Source of the DNA: Candidatus Saccharimonadota bacterium
GTDB lineage: Bacteria > Patescibacteriota > Saccharimonadia > Saccharimonadales > Saccharimonadaceae
NCBI GenBank assembly: GCA_017432365.1
Contig: JAFRJG010000009.1
Location: 1-64,000 of the forward strand
Length of the DNA: 64,000 nt
Reading direction: 5' to 3'
The notes beneath the pieces are model-generated. The model was not told where the DNA came from, did no database searches, and saw only the letters and a list, made by a program, of their open reading frames with translations. Positions 2,627 to 54,634 of the stretch are shown in pieces (positions within the stretch are counted from its first letter, which is position 1; the number at the start of each line of letters is the position of its first letter). The position numbers and the translations under genes are program-made.

Positions 2627-4219
2627 TTATTTTATGCGAATTAATGGTTCGTGCCAAGTTTCCGGAAAATCAGTAAAGCCAAGGAGCGTGGCGACCGTGG
2701 CGGCGACGTTCGAGAGTCCGGGGTCGGAGACGAAGCCGTTGAGAACGTATTTATTACGGTTTTTGGTTGTATCGTAGAAAATACAGGGGACGGGATTTTT
2801 TGAGTGGGAGGTTTTAGCCTCGCCACGACCGTCGAGAAGTTCTTCGGCGTTGCCGTGGTCGGCGGTAATGAGCATCATGCCGCCAAGCTCGTCAACGCGT
2901 TTAGCGAGGCGGGCGAGCTGAATGTCGATTGCTTCGAGAGCGGCAATAGTCGGCTCGATTTCGGCGAAATGACCAACCATATCGCCTCCAGGGTAATTCA
3001 CGCGGACAAAGCGGTATTTCTCGAGGTTATCAAGAACGGCGTCGGTGATTTCGGCGGATTTCATCCATGGACGAGTGTCGAAGGGGGCGGTGTCGGAGTC
3101 GATTTTTAGATGGGTTTCGTTTTGTGCCTTATCATAGCTGTTGCCGTTGAAATAATAAGTAATATGACCGAATTTGACGGTTTCCGAGACGGCGAGCTGA
3201 GAGACGCCTTTTTCGCCGAGGAAAGTATTGAGCGCGTTATCGAAGGAGACGGGGGGCACGAGCTGGAGTTCGGGGACATGGGTGTCGGAGTTATATTCGG
3301 TCATACCGGCGAAAGTTATATCATCGGGCGAGTATTTCCCGCGGTCAAAGTACGGAAAATCGCGATAAGTAAAGCACATAGCGATTTCAATCGCGCGGTC
3401 GGCGCGGAAATCATAATAAATAAAGCTATCACCTTTTTTCAGGGGACCGACGTGGTTTCCAGAGTCGTCAACGATTACGAAGGGCGGGAGGTACTGGTCT
3501 TGGAGAGTGTTGTCGGACTTGCGAAGTTCGTCGACGGCAGTTTCGGCGGAGGAGAACTTTCGGTCGGCGACGCCATGGAACATGTCCCAGCCCTTTTTGA
3601 CCATTCCCCAGTCGTTTTCGTAACGGTCGGCAACGGCGACCATCCGACCGGCGCCAGAGGCGATTCGATAATCTCGCCCCTTTTGGTTGAAAGGCGCGAG
3701 AAAGTTCTCGAGACGGAGAATATACTTCGGTTCAGAGAACGGCGGAACATCGCGACCGTCAAAGACGAGATGAACCCGGACTTTTTCGATTCCTTCCGTA
3801 TCGGCGCGGCGAATCATCTTTTCGAGATGGTCAAGAGAGCTGTGGACATTACCGTCGGAAAAGATACCGGAGAAATGAAGAGTTTTTTCGGAAGGGTTTT
3901 GTTTCAGGTTTGCGATAATTTCAGTCCAGGCGCGGCTTTTAAAAATTTCGCCGGTCTTAAAGGCGTCTTCAACCTTGGCAATTCCCTGTTTGACGATTTG
4001 ACCCGTGCCGAGGGCGTTATGACCAACTTCGGAGTTTCCCATGTCGCCGGGCAAAATCCCGACCGCTTCGCCAGAGGCGGCGAGGGGGCGGTTCGGGAAG
4101 GTTTTTAGAGCATAATCGAGGAACTCGGTATGTGCCAAAGAGAGGGCGTTACCCGGCCCCGCCGGAGCGAGACCGACACCGTCCATGACAACTAAAACTA
4201 TCGGACCGTCGTAGTTCAC
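2627..4219 (-). CDS. gpmI: 2,3-bisphosphoglycerate-independent phosphoglycerate mutase
   Basis: It interconverts 3- and 2-phosphoglycerate in lower glycolysis, using two metal ions and a phosphoserine. The 530-aa product has the expected layout: metal-binding VVMDGVG at the N-terminus, catalytic Ser in GDMGNSEVGHN, FDGRDVPP in the phosphotransferase insert, and ITADHGNAEE near the C-terminus. The start is a GTG whose last two bases form part of the aguA stop (GTGA, 4-base overlap), so it is translationally coupled to agmatine deiminase. Coupling of a glycolytic enzyme to the agmatine pathway suggests one energy-metabolism transcript. Length and motifs are normal for the family (about 510 aa). 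Confidence 0.97.
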   Translation of the reverse strand: MNYDGPIVLVVMDGVGLAPAGPGNALSLAHTEFLDYALKTFPNRPLAASGEAVGILPGDMGNSEVGHNALGTGQIVKQGIAKVEDAFKTGEIFKSRAWTEIIANLKQNPSEKTLHFSGIFSDGNVHSSLDHLEKMIRRADTEGIEKVRVHLVFDGRDVPPFSEPKYILRLENFLAPFNQKGRDYRIASGAGRMVAVADRYENDWGMVKKGWDMFHGVADRKFSSAETAVDELRKSDNTLQDQYLPPFVIVDDSGNHVGPLKKGDSFIYYDFRADRAIEIAMCFTYRDFPYFDRGKYSPDDITFAGMTEYNSDTHVPELQLVPPVSFDNALNTFLGEKGVSQLAVSETVKFGHITYYFNGNSYDKAQNETHLKIDSDTAPFDTRPWMKSAEITDAVLDNLEKYRFVRVNYPGGDMVGHFAEIEPTIAALEAIDIQLARLAKRVDELGGMMLITADHGNAEELLDGRGEAKTSHSKNPVPCIFYDTTKNRNKYVLNGFVSDPGLSNVAATVATLLGFTDFPETWHEPLIRIK

Positions 4220-5337
4220 GCTTGAGGAACCTGTTGAGTGATACAGTGAATATCGCCACCGCCCAGGAGAATCTCGCGGGCGTAAATCGGCTCAATTTTT
4301 CGGTCGGGGAAACAATCTTGAAGGATGTTGATTGCGGCTTGATCATGTTCGTCGTTAAAGACGGGGAGAATAATCGCGCCGTTACAGTTATAGTAGTTGA
4401 TATAGCTGGCAGGAAGACGGTCGCCTTCGTTGCGTGGGAAAGTCCCTTCAACAACGTCAACACCTTCGGATTCTTCCTTAGTAATCGTAGTCGGGTTCGG
4501 GACGTGGATTTTGATAACTTCCAGTTTCCGCCCCTTAGCGTCTGTGACAGACTCGAGGTATTCGAGGTCTTTTTTACTACGTTCGTGCTGGGGGTCTTGT
4601 TCGTTGTCTTCCCAGGCGAGAACGACTTTTCCGGGCGCGACAAACTGACAGATGTTGTCGATATGACCGTTAGTGTCTTCGTCTTTATAGATTCCGTAGG
4701 GGAGCCAGAGGACTTTTTCGGCGCCGCAGTAGTCAAGGAGATATTTTTCGATTTCTTCCTTGTTCAAATCAGGATTACGACCTTTATCGAGACAGGTTTC
4801 TTCGGTTACGAGGAGAGTTCCTTCGCCGTCGGAATGGACGGAGCCGCCTTCGAGAACAAAGTCATCAGTACGGTAACGATCAACGCCTTCGATAGCGCAA
4901 ACCTTCGCGGCGATTTGATCGTCGAAGTCCCAGGGGAAGTAGATACCGTTATAAAGTCCGCCGTAGCCGTTGAACTTCCAGTCGACCGCGCGGAGGTCAC
5001 CCTTGCCGTTGATGACGAAGGTCGGTCCGGTATCACGAATCCAGGAGTCGTTGTTCGAGATTTCGACCACATGAACGTTTTTCAAGTTCAGACCGAGGAC
5101 ATGAGGGTATTGAGATTCATTGACGCCGAGAACGACAGGTTCGTATTTTGCGATAGTCTCGACGACCTGACGGAAGGCAGCCTGAGCGGGCTTAGCCCCG
5201 CCCCGCCAGTTGTCGGGGCGTTCGGGCCAAAGGAGATATGTCGCGACATGGGGGGCGAGCTCGGACGGCATGTAGAAGCCGTCCGCTTTTGGGGTACTAT
5301 CGTTTATTCGCACGACGAAGCGCCTTTCTTTGTTCAT
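4216..5337 (-). CDS. aguA: Agmatine deiminase
   Basis: It hydrolyses agmatine to N-carbamoylputrescine and ammonia, the first step of the agmatine pathway. The product shows STPKADGFYMP near its start, the EGGSVHSDGEGT segment, NGHIDN with the catalytic His and Asp, and the C-terminal GGGDIHCITQQ that carries the nucleophilic cysteine. No key residue is missing. The start is ambiguous. ATG at 5337 gives 373 aa and overlaps the antiporter gene by 41 bases. A GTG at 5313 has AAAGG upstream and gives 365 aa, the usual family length. A longer ATG at 5382 looks unlikely. The gene ends by a 4-base overlap with gpmI. Confidence 0.95.
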   Translation of the reverse strand: MNKERRFVVRINDSTPKADGFYMPSELAPHVATYLLWPERPDNWRGGAKPAQAAFRQVVETIAKYEPVVLGVNESQYPHVLGLNLKNVHVVEISNNDSWIRDTGPTFVINGKGDLRAVDWKFNGYGGLYNGIYFPWDFDDQIAAKVCAIEGVDRYRTDDFVLEGGSVHSDGEGTLLVTEETCLDKGRNPDLNKEEIEKYLLDYCGAEKVLWLPYGIYKDEDTNGHIDNICQFVAPGKVVLAWEDNEQDPQHERSKKDLEYLESVTDAKGRKLEVIKIHVPNPTTITKEESEGVDVVEGTFPRNEGDRLPASYINYYNCNGAIILPVFNDEHDQAAINILQDCFPDRKIEPIYAREILLGGGDIHCITQQVPQA

Positions 5338-6751
5338 CTTTCTTCGAAGCTTGATAGACGAGGACTTCACCGAGGACGACACAGACGACGGTCGAGATAA
5401 TCAGAATCTTGTTATCGGCAATAGCTTCGAGACTGAACTCGGGGACAAGCGTAAAGAAGAGGGAGATGATGAGCATGACTACCGGGACAATACCGAAGAG
5501 GGCGATTTTAACGGGAGAGCCGGAAATCCAGTAGCCGCCATTTTCCTTGACGCCCTTTTTATGGAGTTTAAGGAAGGCGAAGAACATCGGGATATAGCCG
5601 ACGAGAAGGCAGACGAGCGAGAGGTCAAAGAACGCCCAGAACATATTAGAGAGTTCTTCCATGTCGGGGAAGCAGTAAGCGATAACAATTCCGGCAACCG
5701 CAAGGACGGTGGCGACAATCGACGTATAAATCGAGACCATGTAAGGAACACCGTCTTTGTTGGTCTTCTTCCAGGATTTCGGGAAGATACCATCTTTCGC
5801 GGCATAGGCAGTAACGGAGTATACGCCGAATTGCCAAGAGGCGATATTGGCGATTAGAGTGTAGATAAACATACAACCGACGACGGCGATAATTGCTTCA
5901 ATAGCACCAGCAGAGAGACCGATAGCCTCGAGAAGGACGCCGTAGCTTTCGAGCAGTCCGGAGTTTGTAGCGATGTCTTCCAGAGGAATTGCGACGCCCA
6001 TCGCAAAGCTCGGGAGGAGATAGAAGACGGCAATCAAAATACCGCCGAGAATAATCGCTTGGGGGATTTGTTTCTTAGGATTATCCATGTCGTCAATAAA
6101 GGTACCAACAACCTCGAAACCGAGCATGTTGAAGATAATCAGGGAGACGAAGGAAACGCCCGTCCAGTCAATCCCGCCTTCGCTCGAAACGAGAGGCATC
6201 AAATCATGCCAAGATTCAATCGGGTTCGCGGAACCATGTTTCGCGAAGACATAAATACCGATAAAGCCGATTCCGGCGAGGACGATGAACTTCACGATGG
6301 CGCCGAGGTTCGCAACCCAAGCGGACTGAGAAATCCGGAGCATACCAAGGACGGTAATCAAGGCGATATAGCCGACTTGAAGTCCGAGAACCGCCGTGAG
6401 CGAGAGTTCGATGCCGAACGATTGCATGATTAAAGTTGTTAAGAGGTCGGCGAGGGACGCAATCCAGAGTGGGAAGTTAACCCAGTAAAACCAGGCGACA
6501 CGACCAGCCCATTTCTTGCCGAGGGCTTTTTTAACCCAGGTGTACATACCGCCTTCGGAAGGGTATTGAGTACCTAGCTCGGCGGAGATAAGGGCGTAGG
6601 GGATAAAGAAGCCGAGAATCATAATTATCCACCAGAGGTATTGAGAGTTCCCGATTGAGGCGGTCGGCGCGACGGCGTCAATCACGAGAACGATACAGAC
6701 CGTTGCGAGAACCGCAGAAAACAGTCTGAACTTAGGTTTTTTAGTTGGCAT
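5297..6751 (-). CDS. aguD: Agmatine:putrescine antiporter, APC superfamily
   Basis: A 484-aa membrane protein with about 12 hydrophobic segments, resembling the amino acid/polyamine antiporters of the APC superfamily (glutamate/GABA and agmatine/putrescine exchangers). The N-terminal block, with SAELGTQYPSEGGMYTW followed by WAGRVAWFYW, is typical of this group. The substrate is inferred from position: it lies between putrescine carbamoyltransferase and agmatine deiminase, where AguD sits in enterococci. Exchange of incoming agmatine for outgoing putrescine would need no energy input. A Shine-Dalgarno AAGGAGG lies about 14 bases before the ATG, and the gene follows ptcA by only 2 bases. Confidence 0.85.
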   Translation of the reverse strand: MPTKKPKFRLFSAVLATVCIVLVIDAVAPTASIGNSQYLWWIIMILGFFIPYALISAELGTQYPSEGGMYTWVKKALGKKWAGRVAWFYWVNFPLWIASLADLLTTLIMQSFGIELSLTAVLGLQVGYIALITVLGMLRISQSAWVANLGAIVKFIVLAGIGFIGIYVFAKHGSANPIESWHDLMPLVSSEGGIDWTGVSFVSLIIFNMLGFEVVGTFIDDMDNPKKQIPQAIILGGILIAVFYLLPSFAMGVAIPLEDIATNSGLLESYGVLLEAIGLSAGAIEAIIAVVGCMFIYTLIANIASWQFGVYSVTAYAAKDGIFPKSWKKTNKDGVPYMVSIYTSIVATVLAVAGIVIAYCFPDMEELSNMFWAFFDLSLVCLLVGYIPMFFAFLKLHKKGVKENGGYWISGSPVKIALFGIVPVVMLIISLFFTLVPEFSLEAIADNKILIISTVVCVVLGEVLVYQASKKDEQRKALRRANKR

Positions 6752-6753
6752 TG

Positions 6754-7776
6754 TTAGTTTTTGCCCTCCTTTTGGGATTTAATTATATCGAGGGTCGCTT
6801 GCGCGACGCCGCCAAAATACAAAACTAGTCCGCGTTGAGCGGTCAAACGATTCTCCGCTTGGTCGAAGCAAATCGAGTTTTTTCCGTCCATGACCGAGTC
6901 GGTCACTTCTTCGTTGCGGTTCGCAGGGAGACAGTGCATGAATTTTACGTTTTCGTTTTCGGTCGCGTTCATCAAATCGTCGTTGACCTGGAAAGTCGGA
7001 TAAAAATCTTTCATATAAACTTCTTTCGGAGTTTCCTTGTCGTAAAGACCGTACCAAACGTCGGTATAAACGAAGTCGGCGCCCTTCAGACAGTCGCGGT
7101 CACTCGTTACGGTTACGGAACCGCCGTATTTTTCGGCGTTCGCGCGACCGATTTTCTGGAAATCTTCAGAGAGGAGCTTATGTTCGGGACCGTAATGAAC
7201 GAAGTTCATACCGAGCTTAGTAGTAATCATCATGAGGCTCGCGCAGACCTGAGTACAGTCACCGACAAAGACGACTTTCACGGTGTTCCAATCGCGGTCT
7301 TCGGGAAGGTTATCGAGAATGGTAATAATGTCGCCCATTTCTTGAGTCGGGTGATTATAGTCGGACATGCCGTTAATAACGGGGACTTGCGCATATTTCG
7401 CAAGAGCCTGAACAGACTCATGACGGTCAACGCGCGCCATCACGAGGTCGCACATACGACCGAAGACCTGAGCCGTGTCTTCGATGGTTTCGTGAGCGCC
7501 GAGCTGAATCGCGCCAGGGGCGAGGTTCAGGGCATGACCGCCGAGCTGAGACATGGCAACTTCGAAGGAAATCCGAGTACGAGTCGATTTTTGTTCAAAG
7601 AGCATCGCGAGGTTTTTATGATAAAGAGTATCAAGAGTTCCGCCGGACTTCAGAAATTCACGAGTAGCGACAGCGGTTTTAACGATGTCGAGGATTTCAG
7701 ACTGGTCAAAGTCGGTCGTGTCGATAAAATCTTTTTTCGACGGAGTCGAATGCATCAAAGAATATAGGTCGTTCAT
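6754..7776 (-). CDS. ptcA: Putrescine carbamoyltransferase
   Basis: It phosphorolyses N-carbamoylputrescine to putrescine and carbamoyl phosphate. The carbamoyl-phosphate loop STRTRISFE is present, as are HPTQE and the HCLPANR motif shared with ornithine carbamoyltransferase. The residues that separate putrescine from ornithine enzymes match the putrescine type, especially GMSDYNHPTQEMGD and TDVWYGLYD. The neighbouring agmatine deiminase agrees. The C-terminal extension that stabilises trimers in enterococcal PTC appears shorter here (340 aa). The ATG has no clear Shine-Dalgarno site. A TATAAT box lies 7 bases upstream inside a palindrome, so the gene probably has its own leaderless, regulated promoter besides read-through from arcC. 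Confidence 0.93.
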   Translation of the reverse strand: MNDLYSLMHSTPSKKDFIDTTDFDQSEILDIVKTAVATREFLKSGGTLDTLYHKNLAMLFEQKSTRTRISFEVAMSQLGGHALNLAPGAIQLGAHETIEDTAQVFGRMCDLVMARVDRHESVQALAKYAQVPVINGMSDYNHPTQEMGDIITILDNLPEDRDWNTVKVVFVGDCTQVCASLMMITTKLGMNFVHYGPEHKLLSEDFQKIGRANAEKYGGSVTVTSDRDCLKGADFVYTDVWYGLYDKETPKEVYMKDFYPTFQVNDDLMNATENENVKFMHCLPANRNEEVTDSVMDGKNSICFDQAENRLTAQRGLVLYFGGVAQATLDIIKSQKEGKN

Positions 7777-7778
7777 AA

Positions 7779-7797
7779 GCTTAATTATATATTAAGC
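7779..7797. promoter_or_regulatory. Palindrome overlapping a -10 box in front of ptcA
   Basis: GCTTAAT and ATTAAGC form perfect 7-base inverted arms (7779-7785 and 7791-7797) around a 5-base centre. The minus-strand TATAAT (7784-7789) lies inside it and is 7 bases before the ptcA ATG. This is the geometry of a repressor operator over a promoter. The binding protein is unknown; no AguR-like regulator is encoded in this window. Confidence 0.6.
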
Positions 7798-7801
7798 ATA
7801 A

Positions 7802-8755
7802 TTATTTTACAATGATGGTTCCGGACTTGAAACGGAGAGCGGACTCGAGATTATCGAGAGAGCAGATGACGCCGGTTTTGCCGAGTTTAGCAAATTCAGT
7901 GGCGGCGGTAATTTTCGGGAGCATCGAGCCGGCTTTAAAAAAGCCTTGACGGGAGTAATATTCGGCTTCGTTGACTGTGAGATGTTTTAAGGGCTGTGCT
8001 GCGGGAGTACCGAAGTTGAGATAGGCGAAGTCAACCGCCGTGACGGAGAGGAAAATATCAGCCTTGAGCAGTTCGGCGAGTTTTTCGGCGGCGAAGTCTT
8101 TATCGATAACTGCGTCAACGCCCTTGAGGAGTTTCAGGACGCGGGTGCGATAAACCGGCACGCCGCCCCCGCCGGCGGCGACCACGATAACTCCAGACTT
8201 GACGAGGCTTAAAATTTCTTTCGATTCAACGATTGACTTTGGCTTCGGAGAAGGAACGACGCGACGCCAACCGCGCCCGGCGTCTTCCTTGACAATCCAA
8301 CCTTTTTCTTTCGCGAGTTTTTTTGCTTCGGATTCGGAATAAAAAGCGCCGACGGGTTTCGAGGGGTTTTTGAACGCGGGATCGGACTTACTAACTTCGA
8401 CTTGAGTTACGACCGTGGCGACTTTTTTCTTCTTGCCGACTTTAGCGAAAGCGTTGTCGATACTTTGGGCGAGCCAATAACCAATTTGACCCTGAGACAT
8501 GGCGACGGCGGTCTCGAGAGGCATGGCGGGGGCTTTTTCCGAGGCGGCTTGTTCTTCGTGGATTAAAATGTTACCGACTTGAGGCCCGTTACCATGGGCA
8601 AGGACAATTTCATATTTTTCTGAGAGTTTCGCGATAAGGGCGCCGACGTGATTAGCGACGGATTTTTGAGCTTCGGCGGTAACTTCGCCGTTTTTTTGAA
8701 GAGCGTTACCACCGAGGGCGATAACAACACGAGGTTTTTTGGATTTTTTTGGCAT
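7802..8755 (-). CDS. arcC: Carbamate kinase
   Basis: It transfers phosphate from carbamoyl phosphate to ADP, giving ATP, CO2 and ammonia, and is the energy-yielding last step of the agmatine (or arginine) pathway. The 317-aa product has VVIALGGNAL at the N-terminus, AHGNGPQVG, the FYSESEAK segment and VAAGGGGVPV, all typical of the family. The start at 8755 follows AAAGGGAAC. The gene is 17 bases downstream of pgi and 25 bases upstream of ptcA. In enterococci the kinase gene is last (aguBDAC); here it is first, so the order is C-B-D-A. No arginine deiminase or ornithine carbamoyltransferase is present in the window. Confidence 0.96.
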   Translation of the reverse strand: MPKKSKKPRVVIALGGNALQKNGEVTAEAQKSVANHVGALIAKLSEKYEIVLAHGNGPQVGNILIHEEQAASEKAPAMPLETAVAMSQGQIGYWLAQSIDNAFAKVGKKKKVATVVTQVEVSKSDPAFKNPSKPVGAFYSESEAKKLAKEKGWIVKEDAGRGWRRVVPSPKPKSIVESKEILSLVKSGVIVVAAGGGGVPVYRTRVLKLLKGVDAVIDKDFAAEKLAELLKADIFLSVTAVDFAYLNFGTPAAQPLKHLTVNEAEYYSRQGFFKAGSMLPKITAATEFAKLGKTGVICSLDNLESALRFKSGTIIVK

Positions 8756-51430: not shown

Positions 51431-52645
51431 TTATTTTAGAGAGAGAAGAAACTCAGGTAGATATACCGCGGAAATGCCATTCCGAGAGACGGAACTGTTC
51501 TTTTTTTCATTCGTGAGTACATATTTCGGGAAATTATCCTCAATTCCGTCGAAGGCAGAAAACTCACGGTCGATAGTTGAGGCTTCACGGAGTGAGTCGC
51601 AGACTTGGAGATAAAGTTTTTCTCCTTTTCGCTCGGCGACAAAATCAATTTCCTTTTCGTCATTTTTACCAACTTTTACTTCAAACCCCTTCGAAACAAG
51701 GTCGCAAAAGACAATGTTCTCAAGGAGTCCGGACGAGTACGAGGAGTTGCGTCCGTTTATCGCATATAGAAGACCGACGTCGCCGAGATAAAATTTTTCT
51801 TGGAATTTTAAGATTTCTTTACCGCGAAGATCGGTACGGGGAATGCGAAAAAGCACAAAGACATCCTCGAGCCACTTTAGGTAATTATAAATCGTTTCTA
51901 CAGAAAGGGCGCGTCGTTCAGATTTTAAGAAATCAGCGATGGATTTTGCGGAAAAAGTGTTGCCGATATTATCAAAAATGAATTTAATGACGCGATTTAA
52001 TAGCTCGATGTTGCGGATTTTATAGCGATCGACGAGATCGCGGAGGATAATAGTCGAATACACGTCACGAATATATTCGTCGCATTCATCCAGCGAGTAA
52101 TCGGCGACGTGAAGAGCCGGGAAGCCGCCTCGTTCGAAAAAACGTTCAAATTCTTTCGAAATCGTACCGAGTTCGACATTGCGAGCGCGACGAAAATCGA
52201 GATATTCGGAAAAGTTTAGAGGATAAACATGAACATTAACGAACCTCCCGGTCAAATAGGTCGAGAGTTCACGAGAAAGAAGTTTCGAGTTCGAGCCGGA
52301 GATATAGACGTCCGCGCCAGCAACACGCAATCCGTTTACCACTTCGTCCCAACCCTCGATTCGCTGAACTTCGTCGAGAAGGAAATATTTTTTTTCTTTA
52401 CTTTTTCCGAGCAATGTTTTAGCTAAGGCTAAAAAATCCGATTTTTTCGTAATGTCGAGATAATCGAGAGATTCAAAATTCAGCTTCACGATATTATTTT
52501 TCGAGATTTTTCGTTGAAGTAGGATTTGTTCAACTTCGGAAAGAATAGAAGATTTTCCAGAGCGACGTACTCCGACAAGGATTTTTATCAAATCCGCATC
52601 AATAAAGGCGGATACTCTGCTTAAATAGGTTTTACGCTTAATCAT
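51431..52645 (-). CDS. AAA-type ATPase with DUF4143 domain
   Basis: A 404-aa ATPase of the AAA_14/DUF4143 family. Walker A is VGVRRSGKSS, Walker B is YFLLDEVQRIEGW, and SGSNSKLLSRELSTYLTGR is the typical sensor region. The C-terminal DUF4143 part has FLGDVGLLYA and a PD-(D/E)XK-like strand KNDEKEIDFVAERKGEKLYLQV. The ATG is followed by KRKTYLSRV. Members are common in accessory regions of archaea and bacteria and their role is mostly unknown. Base composition is lower in GC than the flanking genes, in line with horizontal transfer. It is monocistronic. Confidence 0.88.
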   Translation of the reverse strand: MIKRKTYLSRVSAFIDADLIKILVGVRRSGKSSILSEVEQILLQRKISKNNIVKLNFESLDYLDITKKSDFLALAKTLLGKSKEKKYFLLDEVQRIEGWDEVVNGLRVAGADVYISGSNSKLLSRELSTYLTGRFVNVHVYPLNFSEYLDFRRARNVELGTISKEFERFFERGGFPALHVADYSLDECDEYIRDVYSTIILRDLVDRYKIRNIELLNRVIKFIFDNIGNTFSAKSIADFLKSERRALSVETIYNYLKWLEDVFVLFRIPRTDLRGKEILKFQEKFYLGDVGLLYAINGRNSSYSSGLLENIVFCDLVSKGFEVKVGKNDEKEIDFVAERKGEKLYLQVCDSLREASTIDREFSAFDGIEDNFPKYVLTNEKKNSSVSRNGISAVYLPEFLLSLK

Positions 52646-52736: not shown

Positions 52737-52769
52737 CCAAAAAACTCCCTGGAAAGGGGAGTTTTTTGG
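52737..52769 (-). terminator. Intrinsic terminator after the serpin gene
   Basis: AAAAAACTCCC and GGGGAGTTTTTT form the hairpin, and T6 follows on the minus strand. Confidence 0.9.
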
Positions 52770-52777
52770 TTTTGGAA

Positions 52778-54634
52778 TTATTCGAGGTTGTGGACGGAGC
52801 CGGTGAACCAGATTTCTCCGGAAGATTTATCGCGGATAAGGAAGAGAAAAGGTTGGTCAAAGGTCAAGTTGATTTCTTCCACAGGAACATCCCATTCGTA
52901 GTCGAAACCGCCACCGCTGGCGCCCTTACCACCACCTAAAGCAGTAACGGCGGCAGCTTTTATTCCGTCGTTTGAGAACTCGATATCGGCTTTATGGAGG
53001 GCGACGTCGATATATGGACGATTTTCCCCGGAAAGAGTTTCCTCGCTAATATCTAACATACCCGACAAGTCCGCACGAGAAGTATCGAAAATGTCTTCAA
53101 TGCCGAGAGATTTCAGGTCAGCCAGCAAATCGAGGTCGTAGTCAAATTTAAAGAAGGGGATGTAACCAGTCAGTTTTGTAATGACGTCTTCTTTGTAGGT
53201 TTCAAGCGACGCGGCGTCTTTCGCGCCATCAATCAGGCTTTGGGCTTTTTCGGCGGTCAGGGTCTTTATGTAGTCCTGAAGCGAGACGGACTTTGGCATG
53301 ATTCCGATATATTCGAGGGTCGAGCCGTCATATTCTTTCAAATCTTTTATGAAGACTTTTTCAGTTTCCGAGTCGGAGAAGGCAAAGTCGGTCGATTGTT
53401 TCATGACGCCGAGGTTGGCTTTTAGCTCGTTCATATATTTGTCGATGTCAAAGGAGTTTAAATAGTCTTCGTCGACAGAGAGATTGTTGTCGGCGTACCA
53501 TTGACGAGTTTCGACTTTCCAATCTTCATAGGAGTTCAAGACAGTTTCGCGAATTTTATCTTCGCCAAGGTCGGCGACGATATCATAGCGGTTGGTACTG
53601 GCTCCGATTTGAGCAGCTTGAGTCGTTTCGGCTCCTCCGGTCAAGGAGATTTTTGAGTAATTCCCGGAGTCGATGCGAGGAACATAGTCGGAGTATTTTT
53701 CGTGAGGATAGCGAATGCTGTAATCAAGGCAAGGGGTATCGTCCGTACGGCTATCTTCAAAAGAGATAATGCCGCCACCACATTGAAGCTGGTTCCGCCA
53801 ATTCATGTCGATTGCGAGAGCGTTGATAAGTAAGAAGTTCAGTTCACTGTTAACAGTCGATGCGTCGAACATGTTATTAATAATTCCGAGGGTTTTATTG
53901 GAGACCCAAGTGTTGAGCGGAGCGGGGGAGGCGAAGGAGTCGTAAATGACTTCGGCGTTATATTTTGAGCTTAACGCGTCAGTGTAAGAAGAAAGAACCT
54001 CGTCTTTAAAGTTTTCGTTAATATATATTGCGTTCGCGAGGGAGCGGTTTTCACTGTTCAAGTAAGCTTTCGGGGAGTAATCGCCGATGAGATTTTCGAT
54101 TTGGGTTTTCGAGTCGCCATTCGCGCCGTCTTTCAGCATGGCGAGAGCGTATTTTATCGAAAGGGGACTGTAAATTTTATTTTTCGCCGCGTTTTCGCCG
54201 TCATTTTCGAGGCGGAGGAAGGCGAGATCAAAATCGCTCAGAGAGTTTCCAGCGAGCCGGAGGCGATTCGCTGTATCTTCGACGGGGGCGGGAGTATCTT
54301 GAGAAGTTTGAGAAGCAAGAGAGGGAGCGGGGCGGAGGAAGAAGTACCAGTAAGCGCCACAGCCACCACAGAGGAGCAAGAGGGCAACAAAACAGCCAAC
54401 GAGAAGACCGGTTTTCGATTTCTTTTCGGGACCGACAACCGAGTCGGGCACGGCAAGCTCAGGGGCGGATTCCAGTTCGGGAGCAGAGACAGGTTCAGAC
54501 TCCGATTCAGGGGCGGGTTCTGATTCAGGGGCGGGTTCTGAGACTGATTCTAAGTCGGAATCGACGGTCGGCTCCGGGACAGAGTCGGCAGGAGATGCCG
54601 AAGAAATTGGTTCTTGGTTAGATTCTTCTTCCAT
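52778..54634 (-). CDS. Membrane-anchored serpin (serine protease inhibitor family)
   Basis: A 618-aa protein. The first 70 residues are Pro/Glu/Ser-rich. A basic KKSK stretch precedes one membrane helix (residues 75-100), so the C-terminal serpin domain faces outside. Serpin hallmarks are KIYSPLSIKYALAMLKDGAN, NWVSNKTLGII-like sequence (LNTWVSNKTLGIINNMF), and the C-terminal FDQPFLFLIRDKSSGEIWFTG. The reactive-loop hinge GIKAAAVTAL (557-566) has the small residues needed for loop insertion, so inhibition by trapping is plausible. The loop continues GGGKGASGGGF, where scissile residues are probably near the K-G pair. Two Cys residues in the middle are unusual. The gene has an AAGGA site. Confidence 0.88.
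   Translation of the reverse strand: MEEESNQEPISSASPADSVPEPTVDSDLESVSEPAPESEPAPESESEPVSAPELESAPELAVPDSVVGPEKKSKTGLLVGCFVALLLLCGGCGAYWYFFLRPAPSLASQTSQDTPAPVEDTANRLRLAGNSLSDFDLAFLRLENDGENAAKNKIYSPLSIKYALAMLKDGANGDSKTQIENLIGDYSPKAYLNSENRSLANAIYINENFKDEVLSSYTDALSSKYNAEVIYDSFASPAPLNTWVSNKTLGIINNMFDASTVNSELNFLLINALAIDMNWRNQLQCGGGIISFEDSRTDDTPCLDYSIRYPHEKYSDYVPRIDSGNYSKISLTGGAETTQAAQIGASTNRYDIVADLGEDKIRETVLNSYEDWKVETRQWYADNNLSVDEDYLNSFDIDKYMNELKANLGVMKQSTDFAFSDSETEKVFIKDLKEYDGSTLEYIGIMPKSVSLQDYIKTLTAEKAQSLIDGAKDAASLETYKEDVITKLTGYIPFFKFDYDLDLLADLKSLGIEDIFDTSRADLSGMLDISEETLSGENRPYIDVALHKADIEFSNDGIKAAAVTALGGGKGASGGGFDYEWDVPVEEINLTFDQPFLFLIRDKSSGEIWFTGSVHNLE

Follow-up and report, generated by a model that had tools for sequence, protein, structure and literature searches.

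A predicted membrane-anchored serpin of Saccharibacteria with a clade-specific insertion beside the breach

The stretch of DNA analyzed here (64,000 nucleotides of a Saccharibacteria contig, hereafter the window) encodes a 618-aa protein (52778–54634, minus strand) that is a genuine serpin by every superfamily feature tested. We consider it fairly likely that this protein, a member of a clade specific to Saccharibacteria, is exported and signal-anchored, and that, on the outside of the cytoplasmic membrane, it still inhibits a serine protease (or a serpin-sensitive cysteine protease) by the suicide mechanism. The source genome is 677 kb in size, and the named genomes most closely related to it are Saccharibacteria, including one from sheep jejunum.

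The original prediction described a complete serpin, and both profile and structure comparisons agree. The open reading frame is uninterrupted, starts with an ATG that has AAGGA just upstream, and is followed, directly 3' of its stop codon, by an intrinsic terminator (52738–52768, minus strand; 12-pair hairpin and U tract, −15.2 kcal/mol, z −4.74). The protein matches the Pfam Serpin family (PF00079) with an E-value of 7e-46 and 157.6 bits (cut-off 27), in an alignment broken into two stretches where extra sequence intervenes, and the Pfam scan matched no second family. A sequence search of the PDB returned serpins, tengpin and conserpin included. Structure modeling with three sequences reached a pLDDT of 37.9, while the addition of four bacterial-type serpins from viral contigs yielded a moderate model (pLDDT 65, pTM 0.64), with values below 50 for the reactive loop and most of the insertion described below. 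This model aligned to solved serpins with Z up to 39.0 (343 residues at 2.9 Å). The sheet required for loop insertion, on which the original prediction depended, is present in it: the hinge is modeled as a strand, and the model aligns best to serpins in the latent or cleaved state, with a lower score for native antithrombin (Z 32.2). Because AlphaFold can misjudge the conformational state of serpins (in PMC11226102, it forced the native state), this loop-inserted state is weak support for inhibition.

Serpins were detected in 41 of the 295 genomes of the same family (14%), across 4 of its 61 genera; in the phylum as a whole, 11 of the 380 genomes gave a match that passed the curated cut-off. 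The rarity stressed originally needs correction, in that serpins recur sporadically within the family and the present one is no isolated case. Two forms occur in the family, a SHORT form of ordinary length and a LONG form, which includes the window protein and was found in 26 of the 295 genomes and 2 of the 61 genera; one genome (G576) carries both. A maximum-likelihood tree built on the serpin core, from which the insertion and the loop were excluded, grouped the LONG serpins in a single clade (support 100/100) with SHORT serpins split around it, and placed both forms far from serpins found elsewhere in the phylum. LONG members are ~40–57% identical to the window protein, and no relatives of theirs were found by a search of viral, phage, and plasmid sequences. 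Two loci (L100 in G653 and L105 in G552) carry LONG genes in side-by-side pairs, the second copy being strongly diverged. The body of papers searched contained none relevant to serpins of Saccharibacteria or of the candidate phyla radiation.

The surroundings of LONG genes differ from genome to genome (L088–L107, L035, and L036), with groEL-like, rpoB-like, or dnaG/rpoD-like genes beside them, for instance. In the window, a gene for an AAA_14/DUF4143 ATPase (51431–52645, minus strand) adjoins the serpin gene downstream, an arrangement not conserved in relatives, and a large, probably exported beta-propeller protein (PF09826; 49061–51151, minus strand) is encoded nearby. Elsewhere in the window, agmatine deiminase-like, amino-acid antiporter-like, carbamoyltransferase-like, and carbamate kinase-like genes form a run (4216–8755, minus strand) that, by sequence, would constitute an agmatine or arginine energy pathway.

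The serpin domain is divided into two parts (these and all further features of the gene lie on the minus strand). Its N-terminal half (residues 128–284; 53783–54253), in which the helix D region is deleted, ends just past the breach tryptophan Trp279 (Trp194 of antitrypsin), and its C-terminal half (residues 412–618; 52781–53401) includes the reactive loop. Between them, where the chain leads on to the gate strands, LONG proteins carry a clade-specific insertion of ~120 residues, ~100 of them net extra (residues 285–411 in the window protein; 53402–53782), which contains Cys285, Cys302, and a confidently modeled helix at ~358–382. Within the family, the insertion profile matched solely inside serpins (26/26 genomes); a weak match in another family (L110) has the sequence of a methionyl-tRNA synthetase and was taken as chance. 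Searched alone, the insertion gave DpdA as its best Pfam result (E 0.021, under the cut-off and not convincing) and a best E-value of 0.16 against PDB sequences, where absence of a match is not proof of a new fold. A cysteine occupies position 285 in 28 of the 29 LONG sequences, its likely partner being Cys302 in 22 and Cys320 in 6, and the one sequence lacking Cys285 (L081) has no extramembrane cysteine at all. The extramembrane count is 0, 2, or 4 in 27/29 sequences and 3 in L035 and L036. This movement of the partner and the joint loss of the pair indicate that Cys285 and its partner probably form a disulfide, and that the domain is hence probably exported.

Ahead of the serpin domain lie an acidic, Pro/Glu-rich N-terminus (residues 1–71; 54422–54634; 13 Pro, 20 Asp/Glu, and 3 Lys/Arg), a membrane helix taken as a signal anchor (residues 75–98, about 76–94; 54341–54412; mean hydropathy 2.27, with KKSK on its N-terminal flank), and a short, unconserved extramembrane linker (residues 99–127; 54254–54340; pairwise identity 0.15). 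In most LONG proteins, four near-identical siblings excepted, the N-terminal flank of the helix is richer in Lys/Arg than the C-terminal one. Together with the cysteine evidence, these flank charges suggest that the N-terminus is probably inside and the serpin domain outside the membrane. The single membrane helix thus stands as predicted, but the acidic Pro-rich segment, which precedes the helix of an N-inside protein, would be cytoplasmic rather than the stalk originally proposed; this region is also matched by many other proteins of the family, probably through composition. As for anchoring at the cell surface, the membrane anchor is retained, whereas exposure is uncertain because only ~30 residues part the helix from the serpin domain. 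SHORT serpins L003, L005, and L037–L040 have a Cys-rich stretch (e.g., CPECNC) immediately after the membrane helix, which is absent there in LONG serpins.

The insertion coincides with an unusual breach. In antitrypsin, the P17 residue Glu342 pairs with Lys290 in the breach. Of the SHORT serpins and those found elsewhere in the phylum, all 24 carry Glu at P17, and all 24 carry Lys or Arg at position 290. LONG serpins, by contrast, have Asn at P17 in 29/29 sequences (Asn555 in the window protein) and Phe, Leu, Val, or Met at position 290 in 28/29, with Glu in the remaining one. Judged from these sequences, both partners changed together, along the branch where the insertion arose. The breach residue Trp194 and the shutter residues Ser53, Pro54, Ser56, Asn186, Asn158, and Thr165 are present in all 29 LONG serpins, and His334 is kept in 28. 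Their hinge (P17–P8, NDGIKAAAVT in the window protein; residues 555–564; 52943–52972) has Gly at P15, Ala at both P12 and P10, and Thr or Ser at P8 in 29/29, with Ile or Val instead of Thr/Ser at P14, and Lys or Arg at P13. Known inhibitors with Val at P14 include C1 inhibitor and antiplasmin, so Ile at this position need not block insertion. The hinge consensus of inhibitory serpins is ExGTEAAAA for P17–P9 (PMC8233489), from which the window protein keeps P15 Gly, P12 Ala, and P10 Ala and deviates at P17 (Asn) and P14 (Ile). The hinge singled out as permissive in the original prediction (GIKAAAVTAL, residues 557–566) does have small residues, with P12–P8 kept throughout the LONG clade, and the retention of hinge and shutter residues makes the proposed inhibitory function plausible. 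Other prokaryotic serpins stabilize the breach region by tails and disulfides (PMC8233489), so that a stabilizing effect of the insertion on the breach is a reasonable inference.

The center of the reactive loop (residues 565–574, ALGGGKGASG; 52913–52942) is Gly-rich, ~60% of its residues being Gly, Ala, or Ser in LONG serpins. Every LONG sequence listed contains G-x-G, where x is Leu, Met, Ala, Lys, Ile, or Val, and Lys570 in the window protein. The Lys-Gly pair had been placed near P2–P1, and a count from P17 in a 17-residue register does put Lys570 at P2 and Gly571 at P1, although this register is insecure; Lys570, one residue before Gly571, would as P1 mean a 16-residue loop. The lysine is not conserved among relatives, and the range of residues at that site leaves the trypsin specificity derived from it weak. 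Beyond the loop center, LONG serpins share a conserved P'-side extension (residues 577–588, FDYEWDVPVEEI; 52871–52906) with the motif F(D/E)YxW(D/E)VPVEEID, whose pairwise identity is 0.69, compared to 0.34 in SHORT serpins and 0.20 in the other serpins compared. From the loop to the Pro-Phe, the P' side spans 24 residues in the window protein, 22–25 in LONG and 16–21 in SHORT serpins, and 11 in antitrypsin. Pairwise identity among LONG serpins is 0.79 for the hinge and 0.39 for the loop center; such a variable center between conserved flanks would be expected if it is the target-facing part, which would adapt. A possible arms-race signal among four near-identical genomes (4/16 loop sites vs 35/463; Fisher p 0.03) involved conservative changes and was discarded as weak.

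If the window protein is a suicide inhibitor, a protease would cleave the Gly-rich loop, the hinge of the cleaved loop would enter the sheet as strand 4A, and the protease would end up trapped. The insertion and the P' extension may jointly offset the lost salt bridge, thereby keeping the breach closed, and/or may provide a surface on which the target protease docks. Targets may include animal gut proteases, proteases of the host bacterium, and the cell's own HtrA. LONG serpins are candidates for a role in protease resistance of Saccharibacteria.

The P17 Asn found throughout the clade and the hydrophobic residue replacing Lys290 in 28 of its 29 sequences would also suit proteins that have lost inhibition and serve at the membrane in binding, adhesion, or a structural role, their working surface being made up of the insertion and the conserved P' segment. 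The same holds for a Gly-rich loop without a clear P1, for a private insertion, and for the conservation of FxYxWxVPVEEID on the P' side where the other serpins compared vary. We regard this loss as a serious contender, but an unlikely one: non-inhibitory serpins usually lose hinge and shutter residues, whereas hinge P12–P8 and shutter are kept in 29/29 LONG serpins despite the divergence of the clade, and variation is concentrated in the loop center.

A sub-case of the inhibitor reading, which we hold to be rather improbable, is that the serpin controls the cell's own membrane-side proteases (HtrA or similar), as housekeeping and not as a shield. The ~30-residue linker, which holds the serpin near the membrane, would fit this, and so would the proteases of the genome, which include an HtrA-type Trypsin_2 and an S41 protease while no subtilase was found in it. 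There is also a precedent in Clostridium thermocellum serpins, for which inhibition of the cell's own subtilisin has been suggested (PMC6718151). However, serpins are patchy, most genomes of the genus and of the family lacking them, a pattern more in keeping with an accessory function than with a housekeeping one, and a comparison of neighborhoods across relatives found no partner or protease gene linked to the serpin gene.

It is similarly doubtful, though conceivable, that the serpin is gated, the disulfide-held insertion replacing the P17-Glu/Lys290 lock of the breach and timing loop insertion, so that the inhibitor would be armed only when a partner (the target protease, the host-cell surface, or the redox state) acts at the insertion. 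If true, this would be an answer to serpin metastability absent from the serpins compared here. A degraded or misassembled relic without function is highly improbable, despite the departures from consensus at P17 and P14, and was rejected given a frame free of internal stops in all LONG genomes listed, a conserved cysteine pair and P' motif, a terminator of its own, and conservation spanning two genera.

Among known serpins, one close to the window protein is tengpin of Thermoanaerobacter tengcongensis (PDB 2pef, 2pee, and 2vh4), a bacterial serpin among the best sequence and Foldseek matches, whose hinge (GTKAGAVT) is close to that of the window protein (GIKAAAVT), but which has Thr at P14, a shorter P' side, and no inserted domain. 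Miropin, the siropins, and the Bifidobacterium longum serpin are bacterial Group T serpins of gut or oral bacteria, and miropin, which has a single disulfide, shields its own cell from plasmin (PMC8233489); no domain comparable to the insertion is described after their breach Trp. Clotm-3 of the Firmicute Clostridium thermocellum is likewise a predicted membrane-associated bacterial serpin, for which the review PMC6718151 describes no insertion of the LONG type. The nearest relatives are the SHORT serpins of the same family (e.g., L003, L005, and L037), which share the membrane helix, the missing helix D, and mostly P14 Ile and P13 Lys, but have neither insertion nor P' motif and pair Glu at P17 with Lys or Arg at position 290. 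No other serpin compared here, a subset of all serpins, combined the insertion with the swapped P17/290 pair and the P' extension. Why a few bacteria retain serpins is a question left open in PMC8233489. One family of ultrasmall bacteria offers a natural experiment, with serpins that have or lack a breach-side domain and the swapped pair, and the comparison of LONG and SHORT forms allows tests of how the stressed state can be held in a serpin that has lost the conserved P17 pair.
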